Notes: generated by a model not told the origin, from the letters alone. 45,591 nucleotides of DNA from a bacterium (GCA_021814165.1 JAKAIX010000004.1:1-45591), one strand, 5' to 3'. Shown: positions 9,375 to 26,573, numbered from the stretch's first letter. Translations and numbers: made by a program.

Positions 9375-11216
9375 TCAATCCGCTTTCTTTACTTTTTCCA
9401 GCGCTTCCTTGAGAGCGCTCCGGAGTTCTTCCACATTTAGTACCTCTTCTGATTCCTCTTTTTTCTTCTTTGTCTCTGTGCCTGAGTTTGTCTCGAGCGC
9501 ATGAAGGGAAAGCGAAGATATTTCTGACTGAGGGGCCATCACCGACTCTTCCTCGAATGTTGTTTTTGGTTTCTCCTCTGTTTTCAACTCGTGTGTTTCA
9601 CGCGGCGGATGAGACGAATGGTGCTGCGGATCGTGCGGAGATTCGCTTTTTTCCTGTTTTTGTTCAGTCGATCGCGCCGGTTGTATCCCGAATTCTATGC
9701 CAAGATTCGCAAGCGCGGCATATTGTTGTTCTCTCGGCTTACCGTCTTTCAACTCCCGCGGCGCCATCCGTACCGGCTTCATTTCGCCCGATTTTATCTT
9801 TGTAAGGCAGTCCTTGCAATACACGGGGCGGCCCTCCTCGGGCTCGAAGGGTACCGTCGTCGCCTTGCCGCAGGAAGAGCACACTACTTCAAACTGGCCC
9901 TCGCTCGGTCCCATCACTCCCGTCCATTTATTGATTTCATCTTCCACTATCCATCGGGGGCGGGCATAATATTTTCTCGAGTACTCAATGATTTTTTGTT
10001 CTATATCTTCGGAGGTGCTCAATTTAAACGGCGGGAGCGTGGCGGCGGAGAACGGACGGCTGGTAACGCCGTTTACCATGAGCTTCAGATAAATATTGTA
10101 GTTCGGAAGGTTCACGAAATCCTCGGGTGCGAACTCCGGTTCGAATTCTTTCTCCAGGAATTCCGCGTCCGCCGCACCTACCCTGAACACAATCATCGTC
10201 CCGACGTTTCCGAATACCGCATCGCGCACCTTAGTCGAGACATCCGTTACGAGCTGCCCCACGTACTGATGGGCAAGTACGAGATCTAAACGATATTTCC
10301 TCGCCTCGGAGAGGATGCTCGCAAACGAATCGGTCGCGAAGTTTTGAAACTCATCAACGTAGAGAAAGAAGTCGACGCGCTCTTCTTCGGGGACGCGCAC
10401 GCGTTCCATCGCGGAGAGCTGAATTTTTGTAATAAGCATGGCGCCCAAGAGCGCCGAGTTGTCCTCGCCTATTCTTCCCTTCGACACGTTCACGAGAAAT
10501 ATCTTCCCCGAATTCATGATATCGAAAATATCAAAAGTGCTTTTTGCCTGTCCCACGATATTTCGGACGACTGAGGTCGAGAGGAATTGCCCTACCTTGT
10601 TTTGAATAGGAGCGATTGCTTCGTTTCTGAATTGATCTCTCCATTCCTCGTATTCATTCACCCAAAATGCTTTCACAACGGGATCCTTGAGATTAGAGAC
10701 AATCTTTCCACGATACTCCTTGTCGACAAGGAGACGTGTAATTCCTAATAGCGTCGATCCCGGGGTATCCAAAAGCGCGAGAATCGCATTATTCAAGATA
10801 TATTCCATTCTCGCCGACCAGACATTCGACCAGATTTTCGTGAAAATGCCCATAAGACCCGAAGCAACGAGATGTTTATACTTCGGATCGGGAAGTTCGA
10901 GCACGTTGAACCCAAGATGGAAATCCGTATCCGCGGGATTGAAGTACACGACGTCCTTCATTCGCTCTTCGGGAATCTTGTGCAGAAGATCCTCGATAAG
11001 CTCGCCGTGCGGATCCACGACGCAAATCCCCTCGCCGTTCGCGATATCCTGTACGATCAAATTATTCAAAAGCGCCGATTTTCCGGTACCGGTCTTTCCG
11101 ATTACGTACGTGTGCTGACGGCGATCTTTTCGCCTGATACCGAAAAGCCGGTTTGAGTTCCGGAAATTGGTTTTGGCAAAATACACGACGTCCTTGTCAG
11201 CTTCCTCGTTTGGCAT
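9375..11216 (-). CDS. TraG/VirD4-like ATPase with C-terminal zinc ribbon
   Basis: 613-residue soluble ATPase of the HerA/FtsK-TraG class. Walker A is GKTGTGKS (40-47). The adjoining CVVDPHGELIEDLL and Walker B FFLYVDEFQNF are typical of CPR TraG/TraM-recognition proteins, as is the AHQYVGQL motif. After the ATPase a Cys4 zinc ribbon (VCSSCGK ... VYCKDC, about 440-470) is followed by a long acidic, lysine-rich tail. No transmembrane segment is seen, so any membrane link would be through a partner. A paralogue with the same core but no ribbon lies at 24472-25917. A TGC-TATAAG extended -10 (11238-11233) lies between two hairpins upstream. DNA or protein pumping is the family role; the substrate is unknown. 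Confidence 0.85.
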   Translation of the reverse strand: MPNEEADKDVVYFAKTNFRNSNRLFGIRRKDRRQHTYVIGKTGTGKSALLNNLIVQDIANGEGICVVDPHGELIEDLLHKIPEERMKDVVYFNPADTDFHLGFNVLELPDPKYKHLVASGLMGIFTKIWSNVWSARMEYILNNAILALLDTPGSTLLGITRLLVDKEYRGKIVSNLKDPVVKAFWVNEYEEWRDQFRNEAIAPIQNKVGQFLSTSVVRNIVGQAKSTFDIFDIMNSGKIFLVNVSKGRIGEDNSALLGAMLITKIQLSAMERVRVPEEERVDFFLYVDEFQNFATDSFASILSEARKYRLDLVLAHQYVGQLVTDVSTKVRDAVFGNVGTMIVFRVGAADAEFLEKEFEPEFAPEDFVNLPNYNIYLKLMVNGVTSRPFSAATLPPFKLSTSEDIEQKIIEYSRKYYARPRWIVEDEINKWTGVMGPSEGQFEVVCSSCGKATTVPFEPEEGRPVYCKDCLTKIKSGEMKPVRMAPRELKDGKPREQQYAALANLGIEFGIQPARSTEQKQEKSESPHDPQHHSSHPPRETHELKTEEKPKTTFEEESVMAPQSEISSLSLHALETNSGTETKKKKEESEEVLNVEELRSALKEALEKVKKAD

Positions 11217-11460: not shown

Positions 11461-13236
11461 TTACATCATCTCCCCTTGATAACATTGTTCACAATAGACG
11501 ATGGCAGGTGATTCGGGCGAGTAGCTTGTTTCGAACTCGTTGAGGCACGGTTCATCGCCATGAAAGTGTTTCGCGGAATTCACGTAGGTATGGGGTCCTT
11601 TTTGCCTTCCCGTTTTGCTTCTACAATCACAGCGCCTTTTCCGTAACACAAACGGGTTTCGCATACTGAGACGCGCTTTGTGACGGCAAAAGAAACAGCG
11701 ACGCGGCAACGGAATATTCATATGACGATAAAATTGGAGTTCCCGAGAGATAATCCGATAATTGCGATTACATTCGATGCAGACGAGAATTTCATCGGTC
11801 ACGCTATCACGCACATCTTCAATTGCATCAGGCAGATCTTCTGTCTTTATCGTTTCCTTACCGGTTGTAAATGGCTGATTTCTGCGCCAACTGAGTCCCC
11901 TTGACCTCGCCTCTTGTTCTTCAAGCGGAAAGTAATCTTGCGCCAGACTCTCGTTATAACCGAAATATGACAATTCAGGCGGATAAAACTCTCCAAATTT
12001 GTAGACGATACCATTCTTATCGACATATGGCATGGAATCCATGTGCGCGATAATCTTAGGTAGCATCATTTCATATTCCTCTTTGGTATACTGTTTGTTC
12101 AAAATACAGTATTGGGCTTTCTTAAGACCAACACAACCGAAAATATTTTCCGAAGAGTGGCAACCATCCACATAATAGTAATCACGATTTTTCCAAGAAA
12201 AGATCGGGAAGCGCCCGACATAGGTATGATCCGGAGTGATTCCCTCATATGTGAGTGACAGCTCCCCACCAACCGTGAGATCATAGCTGTCCTTCGGAGT
12301 GTCGCAACCTTCGGCATACCGGCAATTTTCACCTCGTTGTATCAGGAAACAATCACGGCTGTTTTTACAGTTACTCAGATAGTCTCCGGTCGAGCTAACG
12401 GTATTACGAAATAACGCAAAACGGCGCGGGGAGGTGTAAAGTAATTCCGAAAATTCTTTCCTCGCGCGTTCCACCCCACTAAAAGTATTAAGTTTGTAAC
12501 CGGAAAGTATTTTTTCGTACTCTTCCTTAGAATACTGTTTATTTTTAAAGCAATATCGCTGGTGACGAAGTCCGACGCACAAGAGACAATCGCTGCAATC
12601 TCGGCAATCATATGCGAAGGAACAATCGGAAAGCGCAACCGAATCATAGACATAGCGGCACTGATAGCAATCCTCTATGAAGATTCCTTCATATACGTAA
12701 CTATTGGAGTTAAGAATGTGCAAACAATCCACCAGATATTTACCATCAACCATATAATATCCGTAGAGACAATCCTCCAGCTTCCATGCAATAAAAATCA
12801 TGTAACAATTCTTGGAACGCGCGAAATCCTGGTTATACTCACAATTCACGCTTCCTCCGATAAGTCCGTCGTCGTTCACCAGCGCAAGATATGGCACCCG
12901 TTTCTGTAACTCGTTGAATTGTAAAAAGAACGGTTTTGAGAAATCATATTCTTGCGCGAAATCTTTGGGATCCCACTTGTCAGACCACCAACACTTCACG
13001 CAGTAGACCGTTAAACCGGAATCTTTCGAATAAAGGGAGATAATATTCTTACCGCATAGATCACACGTTCTCTGATAAAGATTCATGTCATTGCGCCATG
13101 ACATGCGACGCTGTTTGCGACATACGGGGCACCACGTCGGCGGGGGCACGTCCATCTTCTCGTAGAATGTAAAATCATCCGGTTCGATGACGAAGGATTG
13201 TTTGCAATTTTGGCAGGTCTTGGTTTCTGAATTCAT
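11461..13236 (-). CDS. cysteine-rich multi-zinc-ribbon repeat protein, array member 7 (last)
   Basis: 591 residues with about 36 cysteines by my count, no signal peptide and no membrane helix. Order: ribbon 1 (Cys8, 11, 36, 39); ribbon 2 (Cys58, 61, 79, 82) ending in CWWSDKWD; a cysteine-laddered repeat region (about 130-240) ending in LRHQRYCFKNKQYSKEEYE; a second such region ending in LKKAQYCILNKQYTKEEYE (about 371-390); a YKFGEFYPPEL...YNES linker; ribbon 3 (Cys486, 489, 514, 517); and ribbon 4 (Cys536, 538, 564, 582, 585 with His557 and His559). Ribbons 1 and 3 share the exact C-x2-C-x24-C-x2-C spacing. The start overlaps the previous gene by 4 bases. Function unknown; zinc binding and a beta-helix-like core are inferences. 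Confidence 0.85.
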   Translation of the reverse strand: MNSETKTCQNCKQSFVIEPDDFTFYEKMDVPPPTWCPVCRKQRRMSWRNDMNLYQRTCDLCGKNIISLYSKDSGLTVYCVKCWWSDKWDPKDFAQEYDFSKPFFLQFNELQKRVPYLALVNDDGLIGGSVNCEYNQDFARSKNCYMIFIAWKLEDCLYGYYMVDGKYLVDCLHILNSNSYVYEGIFIEDCYQCRYVYDSVALSDCSFAYDCRDCSDCLLCVGLRHQRYCFKNKQYSKEEYEKILSGYKLNTFSGVERARKEFSELLYTSPRRFALFRNTVSSTGDYLSNCKNSRDCFLIQRGENCRYAEGCDTPKDSYDLTVGGELSLTYEGITPDHTYVGRFPIFSWKNRDYYYVDGCHSSENIFGCVGLKKAQYCILNKQYTKEEYEMMLPKIIAHMDSMPYVDKNGIVYKFGEFYPPELSYFGYNESLAQDYFPLEEQEARSRGLSWRRNQPFTTGKETIKTEDLPDAIEDVRDSVTDEILVCIECNRNYRIISRELQFYRHMNIPLPRRCFFCRHKARLSMRNPFVLRKRRCDCRSKTGRQKGPHTYVNSAKHFHGDEPCLNEFETSYSPESPAIVYCEQCYQGEMM

Positions 13237-15002
13237 GCTATTTCGCTATTGTAGCACTGCTCACAGTATACAATTTCCGGTCGATCGGGTGCGTAGCTTG
13301 TTTCGAAGGTATTGGGACAGTGACCACCTCCATGAAAATGCTCCGTAGCGTTTTGATAATTGTCTCCTTCTCTTTTCTCCCCTCCGCATTGGCATGTACG
13401 ACGGTAAAGTCGGGGCGGATTTACACGCTTGCATCTCTCCGCGTAACGGCAATTCGGGCATTTTCTTGGAATCGGCAGTTCGAAACGACGCAACAGCAGC
13501 AGTTCGTTCGGCACAACCCGGAACGGGTTTTTGCATTCCATACATTCGATGATTTCATTCAAAATGGCGTCTTTGATGTCGTGAATGCTGTCCGGAAGAT
13601 CTCGAGTGTCTACCGTCGGTTGGTGGGGATTCGGTCTCTGCTCATACCAAGAAAATCCCCGCTTTTCCGCCTCCTCTTTGCTAAGAGGAAAGAAACTGGG
13701 CGCATAACTCTCGTCATATCCGGAAAGACTGAATTCCGGAGGAAAAAACTCGCCGTATTTATAAACTCTTCCTTTTGAATCAACATACGGATGTTCGTTC
13801 ATGTCGTGGATGATCCGTTCGCGGAGTTTTTTATATTCTTCCTCGCTATATTGTTTATTTAAAATGCAAAATCGCTTATTCCTCATATTCGCGCATCCGA
13901 AGAGATATGACGACGAGATTACGAAAAGAGAGTATTCGATTTCACGCACATTCGGCCATGCTTGAAAGGAGCACTTTATCGTGTCCGCTCCTTCTCCCAC
14001 GATCATGCCTTCATAAATCCTCTGTGCGCCGTTTCCCCAAATAGTGTAGTCGTATGAATCCTTTATCCCGGTCATGGTCATAAGTTGGCAATAACGCGAA
14101 TTCTCGGCACCTTCGTGGACAACGTACATATTCTTCGAGTTTTTCGATTCGTATATATAATCCCCGGTAACGTTCAGATTACGAAGCGCGTGAGAAAATT
14201 TATGGGGGTATTTCTCCCAAAACTCCGTGGACTCTTTTTTGAAATGTTCCACGTTTTTATACGAATCCACGTGAAATCCCTCTAATTTCTTCTTGTACTC
14301 TCCCTTCTCGTACGGTTTATTGAAAATGCAGTAATTTTTCTTTCTCAAACCGACACAACCGAAACAATTGCTGCAACCGATACAATCCTTTGAAAAATAC
14401 GTTTCCTGACAATCTTCGCAATCTTCAGAAAAGAACGTCCGATAACACGGCCCGGAATTCACGAGACCGTAACAGAGCTCCGAACCTCCGGTCATGGTAG
14501 AATCCATCAGGTCCTTATTGTGCAAAAGATACTCAGAATAAAGCACGTTTTCGCACTCATCCGCGGTAAAAATGAGGTAACAGTTCTTCGCGGTGGCACA
14601 GTGGTTCACATATTCGGAGTTAACCAACGTAGGATAATTGGAATCAAGCGCGACTTGGGGAGTTTCCCTTATAAGATCTCTCAATTGTTCCAGAAAGGGG
14701 CGTGACGGATCGTATTCACGTGCGTACTGGCCGCTGTCCCATTTATCACTCCACCAACAGACATTGCAATATACAATCAGTTCTTGCTCGGGAGGATACG
14801 ACGATATCATGGATTTCCCGCACATGTCGCATCTTCGCTTGAAGAGACCCCTATCGTTCGCAAACGCCAATCTGCGTTGAAACCTACACTCCGGACACCA
14901 CGTGGGTAGCGGTACCCGCATCCTTTCGTAGAACGTGAAGTCATCGGGTTCGATGACAAATTGATTCTTGCAACTTTGGCATATTCTCGTCTCGGTATTC
15001 AT
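13233..15002 (-). CDS. cysteine-rich multi-zinc-ribbon repeat protein, array member 6
   Basis: 589 residues with the same plan as its neighbour. Ribbons 1 and 2 have identical cysteine positions (8, 11, 36, 39 and 58, 61, 79, 82). The two core motifs read CFGCVGLRKKNYCIFNKPY and FGCANMRNKRFCILNKQY. The second core half carries KDSYDYTIWG, a motif shared by most members. The C-terminal ribbon is the H-x-H type: CQC, then EHFHGGGHC, then YCEQCY. It is preceded by a 29-base spacer holding an AGGAATT-rich dispersed repeat whose end, AGGAATTATG, may provide a weak ribosome site. It overlaps member 7 by 4 bases. Function unknown. Confidence 0.85.
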   Translation of the reverse strand: MNTETRICQSCKNQFVIEPDDFTFYERMRVPLPTWCPECRFQRRLAFANDRGLFKRRCDMCGKSMISSYPPEQELIVYCNVCWWSDKWDSGQYAREYDPSRPFLEQLRDLIRETPQVALDSNYPTLVNSEYVNHCATAKNCYLIFTADECENVLYSEYLLHNKDLMDSTMTGGSELCYGLVNSGPCYRTFFSEDCEDCQETYFSKDCIGCSNCFGCVGLRKKNYCIFNKPYEKGEYKKKLEGFHVDSYKNVEHFKKESTEFWEKYPHKFSHALRNLNVTGDYIYESKNSKNMYVVHEGAENSRYCQLMTMTGIKDSYDYTIWGNGAQRIYEGMIVGEGADTIKCSFQAWPNVREIEYSLFVISSSYLFGCANMRNKRFCILNKQYSEEEYKKLRERIIHDMNEHPYVDSKGRVYKYGEFFPPEFSLSGYDESYAPSFFPLSKEEAEKRGFSWYEQRPNPHQPTVDTRDLPDSIHDIKDAILNEIIECMECKNPFRVVPNELLLLRRFELPIPRKCPNCRYAERCKRVNPPRLYRRTCQCGGEKREGDNYQNATEHFHGGGHCPNTFETSYAPDRPEIVYCEQCYNSEIA

Positions 15003-15031
15003 AATTCCTAATTCTTTATTCCTGATTCTCG
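15003..15031. repeat. dispersed repeat as intra-array spacer (member 5 / member 6)
   Basis: Minus strand: AGAATCAGGAATAAAGAATT then AGGAATT directly before the ATG. It is almost identical to the spacer at 21925-21960 before member 2 and related to the repeats inside mnmA. Most other junctions in the array have no spacer. Confidence 0.75.
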
Positions 15032-16738
15032 TTATACTACTTCCTTAAGATAACATTCTTTGCATAAAATGTACGGCGCTTCCTCTTCCGTATAGTTCGT
15101 GGTGAAATCCGTGCCGCACTTGTCGCATGTTCTCGGAATCATCCTCAAATTTTTTACCCACTGCTTAAATTTTTCGTTGATCCTACAGAAAGGACATCGA
15201 CGCGGTAGCGGCAACCGCATCTGCCTCAAGAATGAAAGTTCCATCGCCGTAATCCTAAATCCCTTGCTGCACGTTTCACATTCTACCACCTCATCCAAGA
15301 TATCGTCCCCCGCGTCGTTTATATGATCCGGCAGATCTCTATATGACTTCGTAATCGTGTAGTTCCGCTCCTCCGGTTCGGCATAATAATACCCCTCTTC
15401 TTCCGCCTCCTTTTTCGAGAGCGGGAAAAAGTCATTTGCGATCGTCTCGTTATAGGCGAACTGCGCAAGCTCAACCGGAAAGAACTCGCCATATTTGTAT
15501 ACTCTCCCCTTTTTATCGACATACGGCATTGTGTCCATGTGCTCGCGGATCTTTGCCGTAAGCGTCTTGTATTCTTCCTCCGAGTACTTTTTATTCAAGA
15601 TCACATATTGACTTTTTCTTACCGCTACACACCCGAAGTGATGTGCGGCGCCATTTGAAAGTTTGCAGTAATTCGCGTCGATTAGGTTCAAACCACATTC
15701 CTGAGCAAAACGAACCCCCGAAACATCTTCTCCGACATTGCAGCATTCATAGCAGCGCGCCATATTATTTCCCCAACTCGAGATATCATATGAATCCTTC
15801 GTGGGGCGATCTTCTGCCATGAGGATAAACTTCGAATCCTGCACGTTTGTGGAATCGAAGCATTCTTTGCAGTTCTTCGACTGAAATACGTAGCTTCCCG
15901 TACAATCGACCGAGAAATCATCATACTTCGGTCTCGGCGGGAATTTTTTCCAGTGTTCTTCGGCTGCGTCCGCGGCTTCCCTGTATACCCTATATGATCC
16001 AAGATCCCATTTCTTAAGTTCCTCAAAATATCCTTCCCTGGAGTATTGCTTGTTAAAAATGTAATACTTCGAATTCCGAAGATTCGCGGATCCAAAGCAA
16101 TTTTGACAGTTATCACAATCACGCAGGAAGTAGCACTCGAGCGAATTCGTCACGTTTCCCCTTGTTCCCACACAACGATTGTTTTTGAACGCGTTCTGGT
16201 TGTCATAGCACATCTCGCAATTCATCGCGCACACGGTGTCGAATACCGACTTGTTGTGTACTTGGTAGAATCCGTACGCCGAATCTTCAATGTAATCCGC
16301 ATGAAAGAGGAGATAACAATTCTTAAGATGTCCCGTATGATTCGTATAAGGAGACGTTTGCATAGCAGGGATATCTATTGAGACCCCGAGAACCGGCGTC
16401 TCGCGCCATAACTCCCTGAACTGTTCGAAAAACGGGCGCGAAAAATCATACTCCCTGCCGTATTTGAATACATCCCAATCGTCCGACCACCAGCACTTCG
16501 GGCAGTACACTACATAAGGGGACTCGGATCGATAGGTCGATATAAAATCTTTTTTACAGAGATCACACGGACGTTTGTAGAGATTGAAGATGTTGAAAAA
16601 CGCCAGCCGCCTCTGGAGCCGACACTTGGGGCAAAACGTCGGCGGCGGTACCTGCATCTTCTCGTAGAACGCGAAATCCTCCGGTTCGATCGTGAACCGG
16701 CTTTTGCAATTCTGACAGAGTCTTGTTTCCGGATTCAT
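15032..16738 (-). CDS. cysteine-rich multi-zinc-ribbon repeat protein, array member 5
   Basis: 568 residues from the ATG at 16738. A longer reading from 16789 would run 50 bases into the upstream gene and lacks family similarity before MNPETRLCQNC, so I reject it. Ribbons 1 and 2 are intact. In the core it shares the stretch NNR...G-R-GNV and CYFLRD with member 4, and the second motif is changed to FGCVAVRKSQYVILNKKY. The C-terminal ribbon is the simple type (CDKCGTDFTTNY ... YILCKECY), with no H-x-H insert. Members 4 and 5 look like the closest pair. One base separates its start from the stop of member 4. Confidence 0.84.
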   Translation of the reverse strand: MNPETRLCQNCKSRFTIEPEDFAFYEKMQVPPPTFCPKCRLQRRLAFFNIFNLYKRPCDLCKKDFISTYRSESPYVVYCPKCWWSDDWDVFKYGREYDFSRPFFEQFRELWRETPVLGVSIDIPAMQTSPYTNHTGHLKNCYLLFHADYIEDSAYGFYQVHNKSVFDTVCAMNCEMCYDNQNAFKNNRCVGTRGNVTNSLECYFLRDCDNCQNCFGSANLRNSKYYIFNKQYSREGYFEELKKWDLGSYRVYREAADAAEEHWKKFPPRPKYDDFSVDCTGSYVFQSKNCKECFDSTNVQDSKFILMAEDRPTKDSYDISSWGNNMARCYECCNVGEDVSGVRFAQECGLNLIDANYCKLSNGAAHHFGCVAVRKSQYVILNKKYSEEEYKTLTAKIREHMDTMPYVDKKGRVYKYGEFFPVELAQFAYNETIANDFFPLSKKEAEEEGYYYAEPEERNYTITKSYRDLPDHINDAGDDILDEVVECETCSKGFRITAMELSFLRQMRLPLPRRCPFCRINEKFKQWVKNLRMIPRTCDKCGTDFTTNYTEEEAPYILCKECYLKEVV

Positions 16739-16739
16739 A

Positions 16740-18446
16740 TCAAAAAATATACTCAAGATAACACTTCGTACAATATGCGATGGGCGCATCCTCTTTCCGG
16801 TAACTCGTTCTGAAATGTTTCCCGCACTTATCGCAATCCCGTTCGATGAGAGTCATTTGCCACGACCAACGCTTCACTTTTTCCTCTATCCGACAAAAGG
16901 GGCAGCGCCGCGGAAGCGGCAGGTTGTGCTGTCTTAGAAATTGGAGTTCCTGGTGGGTTATCTTGTAACCTCTCGGACATGTCGTACATTTGATTACCTC
17001 GTTCAAGACACCATCTTTCGCGTCCCGAACGTGATCGGGTAAGTCCGCCGCATTCATGGTAGTTGCATATTCATTCGGTGACATTTCCGCCCACGTAAGG
17101 CCCCTTTGTAACGCTTCTTCCTTATCAAGCGGGTAGAACATCTGCGCGAAAGTGTCGTTATAATCGTGGGGAGAAAGAGACATGGGAAAAAACTCACCAT
17201 ATTTATATTCATACCCCATCGCATCCCTATAGGGCGATGCTTCCATATGAGCCAATATCTTTTTTCTTATCGCGTGAAAGGCCTCTTTATCGTATCGTTT
17301 ATTGAACACACAGTACTCTTTGTTTCTCAAGCCGGAACATCCCAGAAGAAACGCATCGTTCATACAGCTCTTCGAATATTCGACGTGGTGGCTATTATGG
17401 ATATCCTGGCTGAACTTTACGTCGGAAACGTTATTGCCTATTGTTATGCCCTCGTAGATCCGCTCCGCGTTTTCTCCCCAATCTACATAGTCATAACTAT
17501 CTTTTACACTCGGGGTCTTAATAAGCATCATATATTTGCAATCTTCACAGTATCCGGAATCGTAACACTCCTTGCAGTTTTTCGAATAAAAAACATAGTT
17601 GCCGGTGCAGTTATCGTTAAACATATAGTCGTAGCATGGATTCGGGATCGAGTTTTTCCAAATTTCTTCGGCGCGTGATTTCATCTCCTGATACGTCTTG
17701 TACGAACCGAGATCCATTTCATTTAATTTCTTTTCGTACTCTTCCTTCGTTAGTTGCTCGTTGAAAAAAACGTACTTCTTGTTGTGCAGGTTCGCCGAAC
17801 CGAAGCAGTGCTCCGCGCTTTTCGCGTCACGAAGGAAGTAGCAATCGAAAGAAGTATGAACATTTCCGCGGGATCCGTGGACGCGGTTGTTTCTGAAACC
17901 GTTCAAACCGTCATAACACTGCTCGCATTCCCAATATACGCTGCAATCGAGAAGTGATTTATCCCGTGTTAAATAGAAGCCATATTGGCAATCCTCATCG
18001 TAGTCCGAGTAGAAAATCAGATAACAGTTCTTGGAGTGATCGCAATGGTTGGTATACGGAGAAAGCTCGGTCACGCTTTTTGTGACCGCGATGCCCCGTA
18101 TGGGGACTTTGTGCAGAAATTCGTCCAGCTGCTCGAAAAATGGCTTTGAAAAATCATACTCGCGGGCGTAATCTTCGGGATTCCACTTATCCGACCACCA
18201 GCAGTCCGCGCAGTATACCGTATAGGGCGCATCCGGTTTGTACATCGATATCTTTTCTTCTCCGCATAGATCACACTTCCTCTTATACAAGCGGAACCCC
18301 TTGAACCACGCCAACCGCCTCTGGAGTCGGCACTTCGGGCAAAACGTCGGCGGCGGCACCTGTATCTTTTCGTAGAACCCGAAGTCATCGGGTTCCATAA
18401 CGAATGGGTTCTTACAGTTTTGGCACGTTTTCGTCTCCTGATTCAT
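16740..18446 (-). CDS. cysteine-rich multi-zinc-ribbon repeat protein, array member 4
   Basis: 568 residues, sister to member 5. All four ribbons keep their cysteines: CQNC/CPKC, CDLC/YCADCWW, CTTC/CPFC and CDKC/YCTKCY. In the first core half the usual LRNK motif reads CFGSANLHNKKYVFFNEQL, and in the second LRNKEYCVFNKRY. Between them lie NCTGNYVFYSKNCKECYDS and DSYDYVDWGENAERIYEG, which give a clear sense of a repeating extended-strand structure with cysteine at regular positions. It overlaps member 3 by 4 bases, which suggests coupled translation. Function unknown. Confidence 0.85.
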   Translation of the reverse strand: MNQETKTCQNCKNPFVMEPDDFGFYEKIQVPPPTFCPKCRLQRRLAWFKGFRLYKRKCDLCGEEKISMYKPDAPYTVYCADCWWSDKWNPEDYAREYDFSKPFFEQLDEFLHKVPIRGIAVTKSVTELSPYTNHCDHSKNCYLIFYSDYDEDCQYGFYLTRDKSLLDCSVYWECEQCYDGLNGFRNNRVHGSRGNVHTSFDCYFLRDAKSAEHCFGSANLHNKKYVFFNEQLTKEEYEKKLNEMDLGSYKTYQEMKSRAEEIWKNSIPNPCYDYMFNDNCTGNYVFYSKNCKECYDSGYCEDCKYMMLIKTPSVKDSYDYVDWGENAERIYEGITIGNNVSDVKFSQDIHNSHHVEYSKSCMNDAFLLGCSGLRNKEYCVFNKRYDKEAFHAIRKKILAHMEASPYRDAMGYEYKYGEFFPMSLSPHDYNDTFAQMFYPLDKEEALQRGLTWAEMSPNEYATTMNAADLPDHVRDAKDGVLNEVIKCTTCPRGYKITHQELQFLRQHNLPLPRRCPFCRIEEKVKRWSWQMTLIERDCDKCGKHFRTSYRKEDAPIAYCTKCYLEYIF

Positions 18447-20161
18447 ATGATTACCTTCTTATGACACTCATCGCACACGACGTGATCCCGCATCCCCTGC
18501 GGCGGCATCCCGATGACCGGCGTTCCGCACAAAGAACAAGGCAGCTCCTCGAGTACGAGATTGTTAAGCCATCCGAATCTTAATTTCATACGTTCCTCCG
18601 GATGAAACTCCGGTATCGCAATATGTTCTTTCTTATAAAACGCGAGTTCCGCCTTCGTCAAACGGAACAATCTCCCTGTCCCGCGCGACGCCAACGCAGA
18701 ATCCAAAATATCGTCGGAAACTTCTTCTATGTCCCCTATGGTAGCGCTGTCCACAATCTTCCCCGAAAACTCCGAATGTTCCCCGACCACATACCATATC
18801 CCCTCTCTTTTCGCTTCCTCTTCCGACAAGGGATCCGATAATTGCGCAAGCGAAGCGTTATAAGGGAATGGACTGAGCTTGATCGGGAAAAACTCCCCAT
18901 ATTCACCATTCTTGAGCATCGCTGTTTTTATCTCGTCCAGTTTCCTCCAATATTCGTCCTCCGAATATTGGACGTTCAAAATACAGAACTTCTTGTTTAC
19001 CAGTCCTACACACCCAAAGCAATTATCGCACGATCGCATGTTCATGGAGTACTCAAGGTTATGGCATTGTCCCCGAAGCATCGAGCTGAACTTTATTTCG
19101 AATCCATCATATGGGGAGACGGTAAAGTAACACTTCTCCGGTTTCGTACCGAGAAACACATCCATCGAATCTTTCGCGGCAAGCTGAAAATCATCATATC
19201 GCAGATTTTCACCTCCAACGACGAAAAAACATCGGTAGCAGTCCTTACAATTCTCCAGAAGATTCCCCGAGGAACGGACACTCTGCTCATTCAGGGAAAT
19301 TCTCTTCGGCGACTCCCGCAATAATTCAAGAAATTTGTCTTTCCAACGTTCCAATTCGCTCGCGTTCCCGAGATTTATCTCTTCCATTTTTCTCTCATAC
19401 TCTTCTTCCGACAATTGCGTGTTGAAGAAGTTGTACTTCTTATTTCTCAGGTTCACGCACCCGAAGCAGTATTCGCAATTCCGGCAATCGTACAAAAAAG
19501 CGCTTTCGAGACAATATTTCGAGAAATAGGTAAAAAAACAATGATAGCAATCCCTTACGTGTACTATGTCAAAACATTTATCCGACGACCACGAGACGAG
19601 CACGTCGACGTCGTCCCTGGAATGCATCGGCCAGTTGCCATACTGTACATTCTCGGCATTCATGCCTCCGAACACGTAGTAGCAATTTTTCAGTTGAACG
19701 CCGTAGGCCGCATACTCGCTGTCGACACTCATTGGATCTCCGGTATTTGCCGCCTGCGGCACCTGTTTTTTTATATTATCGAATTGCTCAAAAAACTGCT
19801 TCTTTTCGTCGAAGCTGCTCCCGTAATTCATCGGATCCCAGTCCCCACTCCAGTAGTAGTCAAAATCAAAGATGGGAGACGGTCCTCCCTCCGGAATCTG
19901 CGAAATGAGCATTTCATTGTGCCCCGGAACATTGCATTTTTTCTTGAAAAATGTCGTGTAATTCGTGAAAGCTCTTCTCGTTCGAACACGGCATCTCGGG
20001 CATAAGAGAGGCGGTGGGACGCGGAGCATTCGGTAGAAACCGATGTCCTCCTTTTCAATATTGAAACGCTGTGCGCATTGTTTACAGACACGCTCATGAG
20101 GTACGAGTTCTAGGAGAATCGCATCGAGTGCCTTGTCGAATTGTGGGGTTTTTGAGGTCAT
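18443..20161 (-). CDS. cysteine-rich repeat protein, array member 3, with degenerate ribbons 2 and 3
   Basis: 572 residues from the ATG at 20161, which overlaps the member 2 stop by 4 bases (ATGA); the longer reading from 20245 is an out-of-frame overlap and is rejected. The most divergent member. It has an N-terminal extension, DAILLELVPHERVCKQC, that resembles the lead-in to ribbon 3 of its paralogues. Ribbon 1 is intact (Cys26, 29, 54, 57). Ribbon 2 has lost its second cysteine pair (FDYYWSGDWD in place of YCxxCWWSDKWD), and ribbon 3 has no cysteine at all (ASRGTGRLF ... EFHPEER). Ribbon 4 is the simple type. The core motifs CFGCVNLRNKKYNFFNTQL and FGCVGLVNKKFCILNVQY remain. The pattern suggests relaxed or altered metal binding with the fold kept. 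Confidence 0.82.
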   Translation of the reverse strand: MTSKTPQFDKALDAILLELVPHERVCKQCAQRFNIEKEDIGFYRMLRVPPPLLCPRCRVRTRRAFTNYTTFFKKKCNVPGHNEMLISQIPEGGPSPIFDFDYYWSGDWDPMNYGSSFDEKKQFFEQFDNIKKQVPQAANTGDPMSVDSEYAAYGVQLKNCYYVFGGMNAENVQYGNWPMHSRDDVDVLVSWSSDKCFDIVHVRDCYHCFFTYFSKYCLESAFLYDCRNCEYCFGCVNLRNKKYNFFNTQLSEEEYERKMEEINLGNASELERWKDKFLELLRESPKRISLNEQSVRSSGNLLENCKDCYRCFFVVGGENLRYDDFQLAAKDSMDVFLGTKPEKCYFTVSPYDGFEIKFSSMLRGQCHNLEYSMNMRSCDNCFGCVGLVNKKFCILNVQYSEDEYWRKLDEIKTAMLKNGEYGEFFPIKLSPFPYNASLAQLSDPLSEEEAKREGIWYVVGEHSEFSGKIVDSATIGDIEEVSDDILDSALASRGTGRLFRLTKAELAFYKKEHIAIPEFHPEERMKLRFGWLNNLVLEELPCSLCGTPVIGMPPQGMRDHVVCDECHKKVII

Positions 20162-21924
20162 GCCACTTCCGCCTGATAACACTGTTCGCAGTATACGATT
20201 TCCGGTCTCTCGGGCGAGTATGGCGTTTGAATCGTATTTGAACAACGAGCAGCGCCATGAACGTGAGAAATAAGATTTTTATAATTTCCACGCTCTGAAG
20301 AAACCCCTGTGCACTCACAGGATCTCTCGAAGAGCTTTCGGGGAAGGAGTTTTTTCATTCTCGCCTTATGGCGCTCCAGCGGCGAAACGCGGGGAATTGG
20401 AAGCTGCATCCTTCTATAAAACTCGAGTTCCATAGGAACGAGGCGATAGGGTTTACCCGACACCTCACATTTCAGAACCTTTTGGAGAATATCATCTTTC
20501 ACATACCCAATATCATCCGGAATCGCGTAGTCGGAGAACTCGTATCTCGCGTCCGACTCGTAGTCGCTCCATAAATATCCTTTCCCAATCGCTTCTTCTT
20601 TCGTAATCGGGTAGTAATCCTGCGCCGCGGTTTCGTTATAACCGTACGGAGCGAACTCCACGGGAAAGAACTCTCCATATCCATATACTCTCCCGTTTTT
20701 CCCTTCGTACGGCATATCCGCCATATGCCGCCGTATTTTCGGCACAAGCGTTTCGTACTCTTCTTTCGTATATTTCTTGTTCAAAACGCAGTACTCCCCG
20801 CTCCTCATATTGGCGCATCCGAAGCAGTTCTTGCTGTCGATCACGGAATAGCAGTACTCGACGTCGGATGAGTGTATTTTTTTCAAAGGATCGCCGCTCA
20901 TGCAGAAGTTGCAGAATTTCGAGTTATACACTCCCCCGCCGCTCGCGCACTCGTAGCTCAACTCGGATGCGCCATGCGCGCTCTCGTCATAGCTGTCGCG
21001 AAGCCACCCTCCTATATAGATATGTTTCGCATCCTCGCTGTCTTCCACGTCCCAGGAATCGAACACCCGTTTCGAATTGGTGATGTGGTTTCCGCTCACT
21101 TCGTTCGATCTCAGTATGGACGCGAAACGATGGGGAACGACGTTCCAGAGCGTTTCTGCGCGGGCGCGCAACTCGCTGAAGTTCTTATACGAACTCAGCG
21201 GATGTTCTTCCAGAAATTCCTCATACGACTCCTTCGAGCGGGGTTCGTTAAACAAGTAGTATTGCTTGTTTCTGAGTCCCGCACACCCGAGGCAGTTCGA
21301 ACAGTTCCGGCAATCGAAAGAAAAAAATATGTTTTGAGAGTCGGAACAATCCCTTGAGCCCACGACGCGATAACATTTCTCGCAGTTGATATTTTCGTAC
21401 GCGAGCTCGCTGTTCAGCATCCAGAAATTATCGAGGGAATTTTTGGTATAAAGCGCATAGGTATTGTACGCGGAATCTTCGTTGTAGTGTCCGCCCACGT
21501 TCAGATAGCAGTTCTTGTCATCGGTTTCCTGATTCACCCACTCGCTGTTTACGGTATTCAGGTTCAGGATCGAAACGTGCGGCGTCACGTACAATAGCTC
21601 CCTGAACTGTTCGAAAAAAGGGCGCGAAAAATCATACTCCTTCCCGTAAGAAAACGGACTCCACGTGTCGCCCCACCAGCATTTTTTGCAGTACATCGGA
21701 TATGGTTTGTCGGGCGAGACGCGCGAAACGACCGTCTCTCCGCACAAATCGCATTTCCTTTTATAAAGTGCGCGTTCGTTCCTCCATGCGATCCTCCGTT
21801 GCTCCCTGCATTCGGGGCAGAGTGTCGGCGGCGGGACCTGTATACGCTCGTAAAACGAAAGATCATCGGGTCCGATGACGAAAGGATTCTTGCAATTCTG
21901 ACAAATCTTAGTCTCTTGATTCAT
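20158..21924 (-). CDS. cysteine-rich repeat protein, array member 2, with degenerate ribbon 3
   Basis: 588 residues. Ribbons 1 and 2 are intact. Ribbon 3 keeps the surrounding residues (YRLVPMELEFYRRMQLPIPR) but three of its four cysteines are gone (CEVSGK and VSPLERHK). Ribbon 4 is the H-x-H type (CECTG, SHVHGAARC, YCEQCY). Core motifs are CLGCAGLRNKQYYLFNEPR and CFGCANMRSGEYCVLNKKY. A 36-base spacer carrying the AGGAATT repeat separates it from member 1, as in front of member 6. Because members 2 and 6 share spacer and ribbon-4 type, they may descend from a duplicated block. Function unknown. Confidence 0.84.
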   Translation of the reverse strand: MNQETKICQNCKNPFVIGPDDLSFYERIQVPPPTLCPECREQRRIAWRNERALYKRKCDLCGETVVSRVSPDKPYPMYCKKCWWGDTWSPFSYGKEYDFSRPFFEQFRELLYVTPHVSILNLNTVNSEWVNQETDDKNCYLNVGGHYNEDSAYNTYALYTKNSLDNFWMLNSELAYENINCEKCYRVVGSRDCSDSQNIFFSFDCRNCSNCLGCAGLRNKQYYLFNEPRSKESYEEFLEEHPLSSYKNFSELRARAETLWNVVPHRFASILRSNEVSGNHITNSKRVFDSWDVEDSEDAKHIYIGGWLRDSYDESAHGASELSYECASGGGVYNSKFCNFCMSGDPLKKIHSSDVEYCYSVIDSKNCFGCANMRSGEYCVLNKKYTKEEYETLVPKIRRHMADMPYEGKNGRVYGYGEFFPVEFAPYGYNETAAQDYYPITKEEAIGKGYLWSDYESDARYEFSDYAIPDDIGYVKDDILQKVLKCEVSGKPYRLVPMELEFYRRMQLPIPRVSPLERHKARMKKLLPRKLFERSCECTGVSSERGNYKNLISHVHGAARCSNTIQTPYSPERPEIVYCEQCYQAEVA

Positions 21925-21960
21925 AATTCATAATTCCTAATTCTTTATTCCTGATTCCTG
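21925..21960. repeat. dispersed repeat as intra-array spacer (member 1 / member 2)
   Basis: Minus strand: AGGAATCAGGAATAAAGAAT then TAGGAATTATGAATT before the ATG. It matches 15003-15031 over about 27 bases plus a short extra AATT unit. Confidence 0.75.
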
Positions 21961-23673
21961 CTACGCCACTTCCGATTGATAACACCGTTCGCAGTACAAG
22001 ATTTCTTTCGTGTCAGGGGGATAGTTCGACTGGAACGTGTTCGAACACCTTCCTTCCGGATGATGAGAATGTACTGTCGAGTTCTTATACGTCTTGTAAT
22101 CGCACCCGCACTGTCGCGACTCGAAGAGCCGGTTGGGTCCGCGCGCACGGAATCGTTTCAAGTGTCTGCAATCGGGACATTCTCTCGGCAAAGGAACCTC
22201 GAGGTGTTTGTAGAACTCGAATTCACCCGGAATAATCCGAAAATTTTTTTTGCATGCGGTGCATACGAAAATTTCCTTCGGCACGTCGATTCGAATGTCC
22301 TTGATCGAATCGGGAACCGTATCCCAAGAAACAGACTCCTTTCCGTATGTCCCGCGCGGGGTACCTTCCCACGAGAATCCGAGCGCAAGCGTTTCTTCTT
22401 TCGAAAGAGGAAACTGATCCTGCGCGGCACTTTCGTTGTAGCCGAAGGCACTCATTCCCGCGGGGAAGAATGTACCGTATATCCCGTCCCGCTTCATGTC
22501 CGTAATGATTTCCTGCCTTTTCTCCTCATATTCCTCCTTGGAATACTGCTTATTGAGAATGCAATAATCCTTCTTTCTCAGTCCTACACACCCAAAACAG
22601 TGATTCGAATTGAAGCAATACGATGAGTATTCCATAAAACTGCACGACCAACACACCGCACAGCTTATGTAATGGGAGGTGTCGATGCCCGCGTTGATCG
22701 AGTTATAGATAAGTTCGGCTCCTCTCCCCGCCGTATCGCAGTCCATGCAATCCTTCGCATTCCGCCACACGTGCACCCCGTATGTACAATCCTCGGAATC
22801 GTAGCAATGGAAGCACGAACGACAGTTTTTCGCGTCTTTGATGTAGTTTCCCGAGGAGTTCGGAGCGTTATATACCTCGCCGAACCTCCTCGGTTGCGTC
22901 GCGGCAAACTCTTCGAATCGTTTTCGCATCGCTTCCCTTCCGCTCCACGTGTCGAGACGCGCCTCTTTCTTGAATGTTTCGTACTCTTCTCGCGAGAGCG
23001 ATTTATTGAACACGTGATATTGTTTGTTTCTCAAGTTCACGCATCCGATACAATCGGAGCACCCGCGACAGTCGAGGAGAAAATATCCGTCATGGGAATC
23101 GTGGCATCCTTTGCTGTAAAAAAGTTTGTAGGAGTTATAACAGTCGTCGCTCTCGTACGAAAGTTCCGTCTTCGAGGCAAACGAAACGTCCGTGCAATTA
23201 CGGCATTCCTGAATCCAGTAGCAGTGGGTGCAGTCCTCGTTATTCGAGGACTCGATAATCATGTAGCAGTTCTTGTTGTCGGCCGAGATGTTCACATACT
23301 CGGAATTTACGCTCCGCTCGTACATCAGACCGACCTTCGGCACAGCGTTCAAAAGCGCACCGAGCTGTTCCAAAAATGATCTCGAAGGATTATAAGAGAT
23401 CCCGAAATCCTTCGCGTCCCACGCATCCGAGAACCAGCAGTCGTGACACCACACCCTGAACGGTTTACTCGGACTGTACATCGAGACGCCTTCCTTCCCG
23501 CACCGATCGCACTTCCTTTTGTAAAACGACCGCTCATTCCTGAACGCGAGCCGGTGCCGCGCACGGCACAGAGGACACGATCGCGGGACGGATACGCCGA
23601 TCTTTTCATAGAAGATCGTGTCGTCGGGTTGAATCTCAAAATCCTTCCTACAAATATTACAGGACGCCATCAT
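21961..23673 (-). CDS. cysteine-rich multi-zinc-ribbon repeat protein, array member 1 (promoter-proximal)
   Basis: 570 residues; the first gene transcribed. It lacks the MNxET leader of the others and begins MMASCNIC, giving ribbon 1 as Cys5, 8, 33, 36 with the same 24-residue spacing. Ribbon 2 ends in WCHDCWFSDAWD. The core is the richest in cysteine of the set (for example CTHCYWIQECRNC and CWSCSFMEYSSYC). The motifs CIGCVNLRNKQYHVFNKSL and CFGCVGLRKKDYCILNKQY close the two halves. Ribbon 3 is CTAC/CPDC and ribbon 4 the H-x-H type (VHSHHPEGRC, YCERCY). A TATAAT lies 15 bases before the start. Function unknown. Confidence 0.85.
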   Translation of the reverse strand: MMASCNICRKDFEIQPDDTIFYEKIGVSVPRSCPLCRARHRLAFRNERSFYKRKCDRCGKEGVSMYSPSKPFRVWCHDCWFSDAWDAKDFGISYNPSRSFLEQLGALLNAVPKVGLMYERSVNSEYVNISADNKNCYMIIESSNNEDCTHCYWIQECRNCTDVSFASKTELSYESDDCYNSYKLFYSKGCHDSHDGYFLLDCRGCSDCIGCVNLRNKQYHVFNKSLSREEYETFKKEARLDTWSGREAMRKRFEEFAATQPRRFGEVYNAPNSSGNYIKDAKNCRSCFHCYDSEDCTYGVHVWRNAKDCMDCDTAGRGAELIYNSINAGIDTSHYISCAVCWSCSFMEYSSYCFNSNHCFGCVGLRKKDYCILNKQYSKEEYEEKRQEIITDMKRDGIYGTFFPAGMSAFGYNESAAQDQFPLSKEETLALGFSWEGTPRGTYGKESVSWDTVPDSIKDIRIDVPKEIFVCTACKKNFRIIPGEFEFYKHLEVPLPRECPDCRHLKRFRARGPNRLFESRQCGCDYKTYKNSTVHSHHPEGRCSNTFQSNYPPDTKEILYCERCYQSEVA

Positions 23674-24030: not shown

Positions 24031-24336
24031 CTACCGGACCACCTCAGACATCCACTCTTTATAGGCGTGATTGATGCGACGCACGTCAATAGCTCCGATG
24101 AAGGGCGTAACATAGGCGTGGTTTTGCATGATAAAATCTTCAATCGGCTGCAGTTTTGATTCAAGCGTCTTGATGAGAACCCCGGCTTCTTGGTCCTCCT
24201 TAATTTCTCCCTCCCAGCGGTACGTTGATTGGATCGGCCATACGTTCACGCAGGAAGCCATGTGATGCTCGATAATCAGCTTCGCAAGTTTTTTCCCCTC
24301 TTCCTCATTTTTACAAGTGGTATAAATGAGAACCAT
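24031..24336 (-). CDS. cutA: CutA1-like divalent-ion tolerance protein
   Basis: 101 residues from the ATG at 24336, the usual size for this trimeric ferredoxin-like-fold family. Family markers are VLIYTTCKNEEEGKKLAK, the ASCVNVWPIQSTYRWEGEI segment and EAGVLIKT, with a trailing VTPFIGAIDV strand. A longer reading from 24384 would take its first codons from the dispersed repeat, so I prefer the internal ATG. CutA has been linked to copper tolerance, but its molecular role is unsettled. It is the last gene after the inverted-repeat-bounded ATPase. Confidence 0.88.
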   Translation of the reverse strand: MVLIYTTCKNEEEGKKLAKLIIEHHMASCVNVWPIQSTYRWEGEIKEDQEAGVLIKTLESKLQPIEDFIMQNHAYVTPFIGAIDVRRINHAYKEWMSEVVR

Positions 24337-24374
24337 AACTTTGATGTTTTTAACGACCTTTGAATAAAATTTTC

Positions 24375-24454
24375 CAATTATCAATTTCCAATTTTCAGTG
24401 AATTACAAATTTAAAAATTTTCAAAACCTTACATTTATTGAAAATTGATCATTG
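24375..24454. repeat. 80-bp inverted repeat, left copy, flanking the second TraG-like gene
   Basis: Its reverse complement is identical base for base, as far as I can read, to 25940-26019. The similarity to copy 1 at 11-146 is in the terminal motifs. Each copy is itself an imperfect hairpin. Confidence 0.9.
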
Positions 24455-24471
24455 GAAATTGAAAATTCACA

Positions 24472-25917
24472 CTAGATAAGCGGCTCCGGCGTATCGTTCC
24501 CGGCGGCCGCTTGCGGCTTACCGGTTATTGCCGCCTTCTCCTGGGCGCTTCGGAAGATTCCCTCTTCCTCCTCCGCAATAAGCCGCTTTGCCGCATCCGC
24601 GGAGATAGAGTATTTCTCGCGAGAGCGCGCGATAATTTCTTCCCTGTACGACTGATGGTTCGGAGGGAGCACCTTCAGGGTTTCTGCGGAAAACGGATCG
24701 TAGGTCTCGCCGTCGATCGTCATCTTGATGTAAATCTCACCCATGCCGAGGTTAATCATGTCTTTGATGTCAAACACGGGAGCCATCTCCGGTTTTAGCT
24801 TCACGGCATCTTCACCGCCTACGCGGAAGATGATTATCGTACCTGTATTTCCCAAAACGGCCGCTTGTACTTTCGGCAAGAGTTGCCCCACATACTGGTG
24901 CGCCACCGTAAGACACAGTCCGTATTTGCGCGCCTCCGACAAAAGATTTTCAAACGTATCGGTCACGAGATTTTGGAACTCGTCTACGTATACATAATAA
25001 TCGTGACGTTCGGAACTCGGCAGCGACGCGCGTGCCATACCCGCCTGCTTAATCTTCGTGATAAACATTGAGCCGAAGAAACTCGAGTTCTCCTCTCCGA
25101 TTTTTCCCTTCGAAAGATTGATGAGAATAATTTTCTTCTCCTGCATCAGTTCCTCGAGTTTTACCTTATTTTCCTTCTGCCCGAAGATGTTCCGAAGCAT
25201 CGGGTCCGAAAGAAACTGTCCGAGCTTGTTCACAAGCGGGATTATTGCTTCCGTATCGAACTTCTCCGACCAGTCGGCGAACTCGATTGCCCAGAAACGC
25301 TTCACCATGTCGTCCTCGATATATTCCACCACCTTCTGGCGGTAGTTCCGATCGGTGAGCATTGAGATCATGCCGCGCATAGTGGCATGCGGATAATCGA
25401 GAAGCGCGAGGCAAGTAAAGCGGAATACGTGTTCCAGACGCGGAGTCCAGTTTGCGCCGAATTGTTTCTCCATAACCTCGATAAGACCTTGCGTAAGCTG
25501 ATGCTTGAAGGAGGGATCGATGTTCGCGAGCGGATTGAACGAGACGGGGTAGCTGATGTCGGAGGGATCGATAATGCACACGTCATCGATGCGCTCTTTG
25601 GGAATAAAGGGAATAATGTCGTCGATCGTCTCGCCGTGCGGGTCAATAAGGCAAAGTCCGTGGCCGTACGCGATGTCCTGACGGGTGAAAAGCTCCAAAA
25701 GTTTCGATTTTCCGACGCCGCTCTTCCCGATAATGTAGGCGTGTCTTCTCCTGTCAACGCGCTTGATGCCGAAAATGAAATTCTTCCGTTCAAGCGCAGC
25801 GACGTAGTTGGTTCTCCCGATGAACGACACGTCCTTCGGATCAACCTGCCCGTAGATCGGAAGCTCCGGCGGAGGAGGAGCATATTTGATGATTTGTATT
25901 TTTGATGCGCGAGGCAT
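24472..25917 (-). CDS. TraG/VirD4-like ATPase, paralogue without zinc ribbon
   Basis: 481 residues. Walker A is GKSGVGKS (64-71), Walker B YYVYVDEFQNLV, with LIDPHGETIDDI and AHQYVGQL as in the 613-residue paralogue at 9375-11216. The segment FDIKDMINLGMGEIYIKM near the end corresponds to NLPNYNIYLKLMVNG of the paralogue. A proline-rich N-terminus (YAPPPPELP) precedes the core. It stops soon after the ATPase, so it lacks the Cys4 ribbon and acidic tail. Two membrane proteins lie directly upstream, a likely platform. The gene is bounded by an exact 80-bp inverted repeat. The upstream copy may supply a TTGAAA -35 for a TAAATT that ends 9 bases before the ATG. Confidence 0.85.
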   Translation of the reverse strand: MPRASKIQIIKYAPPPPELPIYGQVDPKDVSFIGRTNYVAALERKNFIFGIKRVDRRRHAYIIGKSGVGKSKLLELFTRQDIAYGHGLCLIDPHGETIDDIIPFIPKERIDDVCIIDPSDISYPVSFNPLANIDPSFKHQLTQGLIEVMEKQFGANWTPRLEHVFRFTCLALLDYPHATMRGMISMLTDRNYRQKVVEYIEDDMVKRFWAIEFADWSEKFDTEAIIPLVNKLGQFLSDPMLRNIFGQKENKVKLEELMQEKKIILINLSKGKIGEENSSFFGSMFITKIKQAGMARASLPSSERHDYYVYVDEFQNLVTDTFENLLSEARKYGLCLTVAHQYVGQLLPKVQAAVLGNTGTIIIFRVGGEDAVKLKPEMAPVFDIKDMINLGMGEIYIKMTIDGETYDPFSAETLKVLPPNHQSYREEIIARSREKYSISADAAKRLIAEEEEGIFRSAQEKAAITGKPQAAAGNDTPEPLI

Positions 25918-26030: not shown

Positions 26031-26573
26031 CTACCCGAGTGCTCCCAATTCTTTCAAAAACGCTTCGTACGTATCAAGCATTGTTCTCCCCTCTTTTTCC
26101 GAAATTTCGAATCCCGGGGTATGCACGAGTTGGTTCCGTATCTTATGCGCTCTCCAAAGATCCTCAAGCGTCTCAAGCTCCTCGAGGTCGAGGCCCTGAA
26201 GACGATCGGCCATATGTTCCCCAGGAAGCCCGATGGTCTGCAGTACAGAATCGACAAGGTTGTCTGCGGCGATTACTCCGAGTTTCATCGAGTGGGGCGG
26301 AGCGCTCTCCGCATCCTTCTTTATCTTTTCCCAATAACCTTTTACCCGCACGCGATCGACCGGAAATGCTTTTTTCTTTTCTCCTTCCTTAATTCTCCCC
26401 CGGAAATTCATCTCAAGGTCGGGGCGAAACCCCCATCCTTTCCAGAGTGCAAGACAAAACGCAATAAAGAGAAGGACATCGAGAACGATGAACACCACCC
26501 GTGCAACCGAGAAGAGGCCTTCCCACGGGAAGTTGGTGAAAAAATCACCGATAGCGGAAAAAAATGAACTCAT
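26031..26573 (-). CDS. membrane-anchored helical protein with HEPN-like RNxxxH motif
   Basis: 180 residues from the ATG at 26573, 5 bases after the preceding stop; a longer frame to 26891 is an overlap and is rejected. One transmembrane helix (about 22-44) is followed by a cytoplasmic region. That region contains a basic FRGRIKEGEKKKAFPVDRVR stretch and then a mostly helical C-terminus. Near the end, IRNQLVH places Arg146 and His151 in the R-x4-H arrangement that defines HEPN RNases. The matching helix (ISEKEGRTMLDTYEAFLKEL) follows, as in HEPN/DUF4145-type domains. The gene lies between the large membrane protein and the TraG-like ATPase. HEPN membership is inference from one motif; a purely structural helical domain is possible. 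Confidence 0.7.
   Translation of the reverse strand: MSSFFSAIGDFFTNFPWEGLFSVARVVFIVLDVLLFIAFCLALWKGWGFRPDLEMNFRGRIKEGEKKKAFPVDRVRVKGYWEKIKKDAESAPPHSMKLGVIAADNLVDSVLQTIGLPGEHMADRLQGLDLEELETLEDLWRAHKIRNQLVHTPGFEISEKEGRTMLDTYEAFLKELGALG

Follow-up and report, generated by a model that had tools for sequence, protein, structure and literature searches.

A multi-copy family of cysteine-rich, predicted beta-solenoid proteins in Patescibacteria is coupled to one VirD4/TrwB-like ATPase and to its C-terminal tail

Why would a reduced bacterial genome keep seven related genes, head to tail, for a large cysteine-rich protein of no known function? The question is raised by a stretch of bacterial DNA of 45,591 nucleotides (GCA_021814165.1, JAKAIX010000004.1:1-45591; the whole stretch is called the window here), in which such an array occupies positions 11461-23673 on the minus strand. 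We refer to the multi-zinc-finger protein family that it encodes as F, and to its seven members in the array as F1 to F7. A first-pass annotation of the window had suggested that the copies form a multi-subunit assembly or a set of related binders; it recognised the array and passed over the flanking ATPase genes, which carry the functional clue. Our results indicate a well-supported coupling between F and one of these genes, T1, whose product bears a four-residue C-terminal tail that is kept together with F. Based on this, the F proteins are probably clients (cargo or adaptors) of a motor that descends from a type IV secretion system (T4SS), and would dock on the T1 tail. A gene-poor Patescibacteria genome spends about 5% of its length on a single family of no known function, and because this family is tied to a particular VirD4-type ATPase and its four-residue tail, its role is directly testable.

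T1 (24472-25917, minus strand) encodes a VirD4/TrwB-like ATPase of 481 amino acids that matches the Pfam family TrwB_AAD_bind (PF10412) at 30.1 bits, above the cut-off of 20.5, with conserved GKSGVGKS and DEFQ motifs. When the 881 open reading frames (ORFs) near F genes were clustered, the most recurrent family was that of VirD4/TrwB-like ATPases and a companion (54 members, 29 loci). Across a sample of 287 genomes of the class, 37 had both F and T1, four had F alone, two had T1 alone and 244 had neither (Fisher p 1e-39; this and the later p-value are guides only, because the genomes are related and the class, phylum and close-relative samples overlap in some genomes). Among close relatives, T1 was present in 16 of the 17 genomes with F and in none of the 22 without it, and in the phylum sample an ATPase of the F-linked type was found in 19 of 21 F-positive genomes as against 1 of 265 F-negative ones. 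The other genes of the neighbourhood that we considered as F-specific partners, T3, T2 and H (described below), were rejected since all are near-universal: with F status ignored, they occur in 37, 38 and 35 of the 39 relatives, respectively.

Physical linkage follows the same pattern. Of 37 genomes, at least 20 have T1 within 1 kb of a listed F gene and at least 29 have it within 10 kb; in two genomes with few F genes (G321 and G413), 594 and 768 bases separate F from T1. Outside the class, F arrays elsewhere in the phylum sit beside an ATPase that forms a single chain of about 746 amino acids and includes a T2-like part. The cut-off used for the ATPase search in the class sample (1e-200) would miss this fused type. 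A tree of the ATPase domains sets the F-linked ATPases apart from T3, T4 and the others outside the T1 clade with a support of 1.00; tailless T1 relatives from some F-negative genomes fall inside that clade.

The extreme C-terminus of the F-linked ATPases reads P-[LMI]-[IVL]-COOH, most often EPLI or EPMI, and the EPLI tetrapeptide of T1 (24475-24486, minus strand) is our candidate docking motif for F. Counted by script, the tail is present in 45 of 47 T1 or fused ATPases and in 0 of 33 other ATPases, against a background of 2 loose matches among the 881 neighbouring genes. Of the two that lack it, one belongs to an F-negative genome; in the other the ORF is split, and its second piece ends in EPLV. 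The linker before the tail is variable (identity 0.22); E and P do not vary across 20 T1 proteins. In a follow-up on 40 further T1 genes, which is not fully independent of the first set because some genomes gave loci to both, all 38 genes from F-positive genomes encoded the tail and the two from F-negative genomes (G493, G510) did not. Taken together, the tail is gone from seven of the eight T1-clade ATPases of F-negative genomes (G007, G013, G017, G509, G347, G493, G510); setting these eight beside the 38 gives, by our own arithmetic, a hypergeometric estimate of about 1.5e-7. Tailless T1-clade ATPases were seen at loci L173, L174, L175, L176, L177 and L183, and the ones included in the tree sit on long branches, which would fit a relaxation of constraint once F had been lost.

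These observations bear on a rival explanation, namely that F and T1 co-occur through mere genetic linkage, as neighbours gained and lost jointly without any joint function. T1 does adjoin F in many genomes. Nevertheless, the pairing persists across classes in which the ATPase is differently built, T3 also adjoins the array yet does not track F, and the tail disappears when F is absent even though T1 stays. We therefore regard linkage alone as a distinctly improbable explanation.

A precedent for the tail comes from the coupling proteins TraD of the F plasmid and DotL of Legionella, in which a C-terminal tail binds an adaptor partner (PMC6362355, PMC7434980). T1 shares with these proteins its ATPase class, by Pfam, and a peptide at its very C-terminus, carried by a variable linker; their tails bind adaptors, and that of T1 correlates with a partner family. 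There are also differences. T1 is devoid of a membrane helix of its own, and its presumed anchor, T2, carries a VirB4-type domain; the window proteins scanned include neither a relaxase nor a VirB4 beside T1; and its candidate client is a large zinc/beta-solenoid family of up to 23 copies. The co-occurrence of F and T1, the retention of the tail with F and this precedent together lead us to propose F as tail-docking clients of T1. In such a scheme, F proteins would be dedicated cytoplasmic clients of T1, which would work together with the membrane-anchored T2; T1 would be the F-specific part of a T4SS-derived motor whose T2, H and T3 parts are near-universal. T1 would recognise F by its C-terminal P-[LMI]-[IVL]-COOH on the variable linker, the tail being bound, probably, by a conserved zinc module of F, and the family would amount to fixed, specialised binders presented to one motor.

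What the clients would do is a more tentative matter. The likeliest option, which we hold as a possibility short of even chances, is that F is itself the translocated cargo; the next, somewhat more doubtful, is that F proteins are adaptors bringing other cargo. F is encoded beside its cognate coupling ATPase and has no Sec signal, features expected of T4SS cargo and suggestive only. It is possible, if doubtful, that F comprises effector-like T4SS cargo, up to 23 per cell, recruited through the P-[LMI]-[IVL] tail and delivered to neighbour or host cells; were F cargo, it would offer Patescibacteria a candidate means of acting on other cells. A survey of Patescibacteria T4SS counted 5,713 VirD4-type proteins in 2,918 genomes, only 148 of them near virB4, and left an exapted role of the orphan VirD4-type proteins as an open possibility (PMC12102498). 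T1 is probably one of these orphans. The parts of the survey consulted link no partner family to VirD4-type proteins and, under zinc, cysteine and effector, contain nothing on F (PMC12102498). Our findings also supply a partner for one group among the phylum's many orphan coupling proteins, whose purpose has so far been open.

A related reading keeps the partnership and changes the load: F proteins would be cytoplasmic nucleic-acid-binding adaptors that hand DNA or RNA to T1, which would act as a DNA pump for uptake or transfer, in the manner of TraM with TraD. Treble clefs and zinc ribbons are often nucleic-acid binders, T1 and T3 fall in the DNA-pumping VirD4/TrwB/HerA class, and TraM, a known ligand of a type IV coupling protein tail, is a DNA-binding adaptor. 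Yet the scanned window proteins include no relaxase, reported relaxases are rare in the group (PMC12102498), a general DNA adaptor would not readily account for as many as 23 specialised copies, and the zinc fingers of F may bind protein just as well. We consider this reading unlikely.

Several points weigh against the proposal that F proteins are clients of T1. The data show the co-occurrence and linkage of F and T1, the correlation with the tail, the predicted folds and the pattern of selection; physical binding, translocation, its direction and its destination are steps that we infer. No recognised secretion signal is found in F, and its many zinc sites would have to unfold for passage through a narrow channel. 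T1 itself has no membrane helix, and VirB4 is encoded outside the window (a VirB4-like gene lies on contig C8). The 39 T1-positive genomes are related, so that the p-values overstate independence, and T1 and F could be co-inherited simply as neighbours. F occurs without a detected partner in G340, G462, G476 and G507 of the class sample, in G026 among the relatives and in G282. Conversely, the T1 of G156 (L137:9179-10615) keeps an EPMI tail in a genome without detectable F, and is thereby the eighth T1-clade ATPase of the F-negative set. DnaK- and DnaJ-like genes lie near the G156 T1. The tail might also bind the product of some gene other than F that was lost together with it.

How large and how old is the family? 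A profile built from the seven array proteins found 23 full-length, stop-free copies in the genome of 786 kb; the seven genes first described are real, and the full set could not have shown in the window. At about 1.77 kb per copy the family takes up some 41 kb (about 5% of the genome, by our arithmetic), and the 16 copies outside the array include several pairs or triplets. Of the 39 relatives, 22 lack F and the other 17 carry 3 to 23 copies. F is present in 41 of 287 genomes of the class and in about 21 of 286 of the phylum, short zinc-finger matches excluded; full copy numbers are not readable from these two samples because only four or five candidates were scored per genome. The recurrence of arrays in relatives, which the first-pass annotation had proposed to look for, was supported by the family search. 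Some genomes of the class sample have one match, and our own impression from close relatives that F always comes in many copies failed for this reason.

The 80 loci retained from the collection of genomes appear to be Patescibacteria, and neither the plasmid nor the phage collection gave a match. The sole match in the viral collection (L100:5832-5966) is an F fragment at the end of a 6-kb contig, which may be a misassigned bacterial contig. We rejected F as a mobile element, given the lack of plasmid or phage matches, the diverged and intact state of the copies and the single, marginal viral-contig fragment. One copy, G008:C1:79546-81333, has an in-frame TAG and is a possible pseudogene; nearly all listed copies are intact.

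In a tree of 169 F members, the array proteins group with copies from other genera, and no same-genome sister copies were found in the relatives G001, G003, G006, G015, G016, G021 and G024. This topology rejects a recent local amplification. The copies belong to ancient subtypes on which purifying selection acts: dN/dS (the ratio of non-synonymous to synonymous substitution rates) is 0.04-0.10 between congeners for the pairs with unsaturated dS. When paralogues within a genome are compared, the core is the least conserved region (0.33; the zinc ends have 0.49 and 0.47). Between orthologues of more than 80% identity it is the most conserved (0.91, against 0.85 and 0.80), and in all 17 close pairs it is better conserved than the C-terminal zinc module. 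Because pairs were selected on identity over the whole protein, of which the core is part, this result is tilted somewhat towards a conserved core. When all orthologue pairs are put together, the core is slightly lower than the zinc ends. As the core is variable among paralogues and fixed in orthologues, each copy seems to hold its own fixed specificity on common zinc ends. The differing solenoid core on shared ends points to a set of fixed, specialised binders, and the earlier suggestion of a set of related binders fits both the age of the subtypes and the conservation of their cores within close orthologue pairs.

The same data speak to two other explanations. The first, suggested in the first-pass annotation, is that the array encodes the distinct subunits of one large hetero-oligomeric assembly. 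The tight packing and overlap of the genes and the existence of ancient subtypes, each present about once per genome, would be in keeping with it. A fixed assembly is at odds, however, with copy numbers that run from 1 to 23 in related genomes (7 as against 23 inside the genus), with a subtype content that varies from array to array and with the location of 16 of the 23 copies outside the array; we judge it improbable. The second is that F proteins are fast-diversifying surface or antigenic variants, or arms-race effectors, as large and diverse paralogue sets might suggest and as arrays of VirB2 pilins in Patescibacteria were interpreted in the survey (PMC12102498). Against this stand the low dN/dS wherever it is measurable, the orthologue/paralogue pattern (the core best kept in close orthologue pairs), which disfavours diversifying selection, the absence of same-genome sisters in the seven relatives named above and the lack of a signal peptide. 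This last explanation is very improbable, the least likely of those considered.

We also asked what the F protein looks like. Structure prediction, one of the checks proposed at the outset, gave a confident AlphaFold model of F6 from 124 homologues (mean predicted local distance difference test, pLDDT, 90.6; predicted template modelling score, pTM, 0.91). The predicted plan has two zinc modules at each end with two beta-solenoid blocks between them. The model begins with an N-terminal treble clef (C8, C11, C36, C39) and a putative second zinc site (C58, C61, C79, C82); the predicted middle runs through solenoid block 1, a helix, solenoid block 2, a helix and a conserved YGEFFP segment; and the C-terminal end holds a treble clef (C487, C490, C515, C518) and a last zinc site (C537, C562, C580, C583). 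The cysteine pattern suggests that F binds zinc. Foldseek found no match to this model in the PDB at an E of 0.001 or better.

Nor do databases offer a known counterpart. Profile search placed F in no known enzyme class, and we rejected its identification as a known enzyme or family, there being no significant whole-protein match in Pfam, NCBIfam, PHROGs, PADLOC, PDB sequence or Foldseek searches. No curated family for the whole of F exists in Pfam, NCBIfam, PHROGs or PADLOC, which return weak zinc-finger matches only. F shares its CxxC...CxxC spacing with the zf_Tbcl and CxxC-x17-CxxC treble clefs (PF13451, PF23477, TIGR04272); those are small domains, unlike the F architecture of 570-590 amino acids, and F scores below the curated cut-offs (19.8 bits against 24 for zf_Tbcl and 17.8 against 36 for TIGR04272). 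In PADLOC, searched for known anti-phage defence systems, T1 and T3 match only a generic HerA/mad8 ATPase, and F has one weak match. Among proteins with a left-handed beta-helix, GlmU, LpxA/LpxD and insect antifreeze protein align loosely with the second solenoid block only (Z 6.5 at most, over 112 residues; Foldseek E 0.14 or worse). These values are also what a comparison with the acyltransferases or gamma-carbonic anhydrases of that fold rests on, and no enzyme motif was recognised in F; the likeness is likely one of shared solenoid architecture only. Literature searches found no published description of the family. Some GenBank entries from the Candidate Phyla Radiation (CPR) presumably label such sequences as 'Caib/baif family protein'. 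The first description of F, as a cysteine-rich multi-zinc-finger family of reduced CPR/Patescibacteria genomes without a curated function, is supported, and here F occurs in that group only.

Within the array, an ORF check bore out seven intact paralogues of 568-591 residues, head to tail on the minus strand, all with ATG starts and none with an internal stop. In transcription order the junctions are a gap of 36 bases, two overlaps of 4, gaps of 1 and 29 and an overlap of 4, which agrees with the pattern first reported (three 4-base overlaps, one 1-base gap, two spacers of about 30). The TATAAT noted before the first gene is indeed there, about 20 bases 5' of the F1 ATG, and is a candidate promoter. 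Identity to the fourth gene is 29-50%, with 64 columns invariant across the seven, a homology far above chance. As had been claimed, none of the seven has a membrane-helix-like stretch (19-residue hydropathy maximum 1.10 or less), and their N-termini start with a zinc finger at once or after a short polar leader. F1 (21961-23673; 570 amino acids), the first gene, has the zinc module, beta-solenoid, zinc module plan and orthologues in G003, G006, G015 and G021. F2 (20158-21924; 588) has lost some cysteines of its third treble clef and has orthologues in G001, G003, G006 and G016. F3 (18443-20161; 572) is a divergent subtype that has a leader and few cysteines in its C-terminal treble clef, and forms a separate subtype clade in the tree. 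F4 (16740-18446; 568) has an orthologue of 90% identity in G001. F5 (15032-16738; 568) starts at the ATG at 16738 and not at 16789, the exact starts of F5 and F3 not being those of the longest ORFs. F6 (13233-15002; 589) is the member modelled above, and F7 (11461-13236; 591) is the last gene.

T2 (26579-27985, minus strand; 468 amino acids) is membrane-anchored, and its model (pLDDT 78.3, pTM 0.76) is predicted to share the fold of the N-terminal domain of VirB4 (TrwK of R388), with a Foldseek E of 4e-5 and a VIA Z of 16.7 over 253 residues at 3.8 A; the next unrelated fold reaches Z 9.1. The T2 sequence has no match to the VirB4 (TrwK) of the PDB. Unlike VirB4, T2 is a separate chain without an ATPase domain, VirB4 proper being encoded elsewhere in the genome, and the profiles of T2 and T1 are unrelated. 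With a hydropathy maximum of 1.32, T1 lacks the N-terminal membrane anchor of coupling proteins, and T2 may supply the anchor. Between T2 and T1 lies H (26031-26573, minus strand), a membrane protein of 180 amino acids with a HEPN-like RNxxVH motif; most relatives have H whether or not they carry F. T3 (9375-11216, minus strand; 613 amino acids), which flanks the array at its far end, is a VirD4/TrwB-like ATPase, near-universal and independent of F, whose C-terminal CxxC-x17-CxxC zinc finger strongly matches the treble-clef families of that name.

Further genes recur around F. Upstream of T2 is a gene for a sigma-70 region 4/HARE-HTH protein (28075-29097, minus strand), a conserved neighbour in relatives. 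A CutA1 homologue (24031-24384, minus strand) lies between T1 and F1 and takes the same place in relatives; CutA1 occurs in 10 loci, in eight of which it is within 400 bases of an F gene. An ArsR-like helix-turn-helix gene (L004:9715-9987) stands directly 5' of an F gene, and similar genes adjoin F in other loci. Finally, many Patescibacteria without full-length F have short ORFs (about 100 amino acids) akin to the N- or C-terminal zinc module alone, and solenoid-only relatives of F are likewise found in many of them; examples of such partial ORFs from the phylum sample are G061:C5:48922-49170 and G209:C1:119481-119921.

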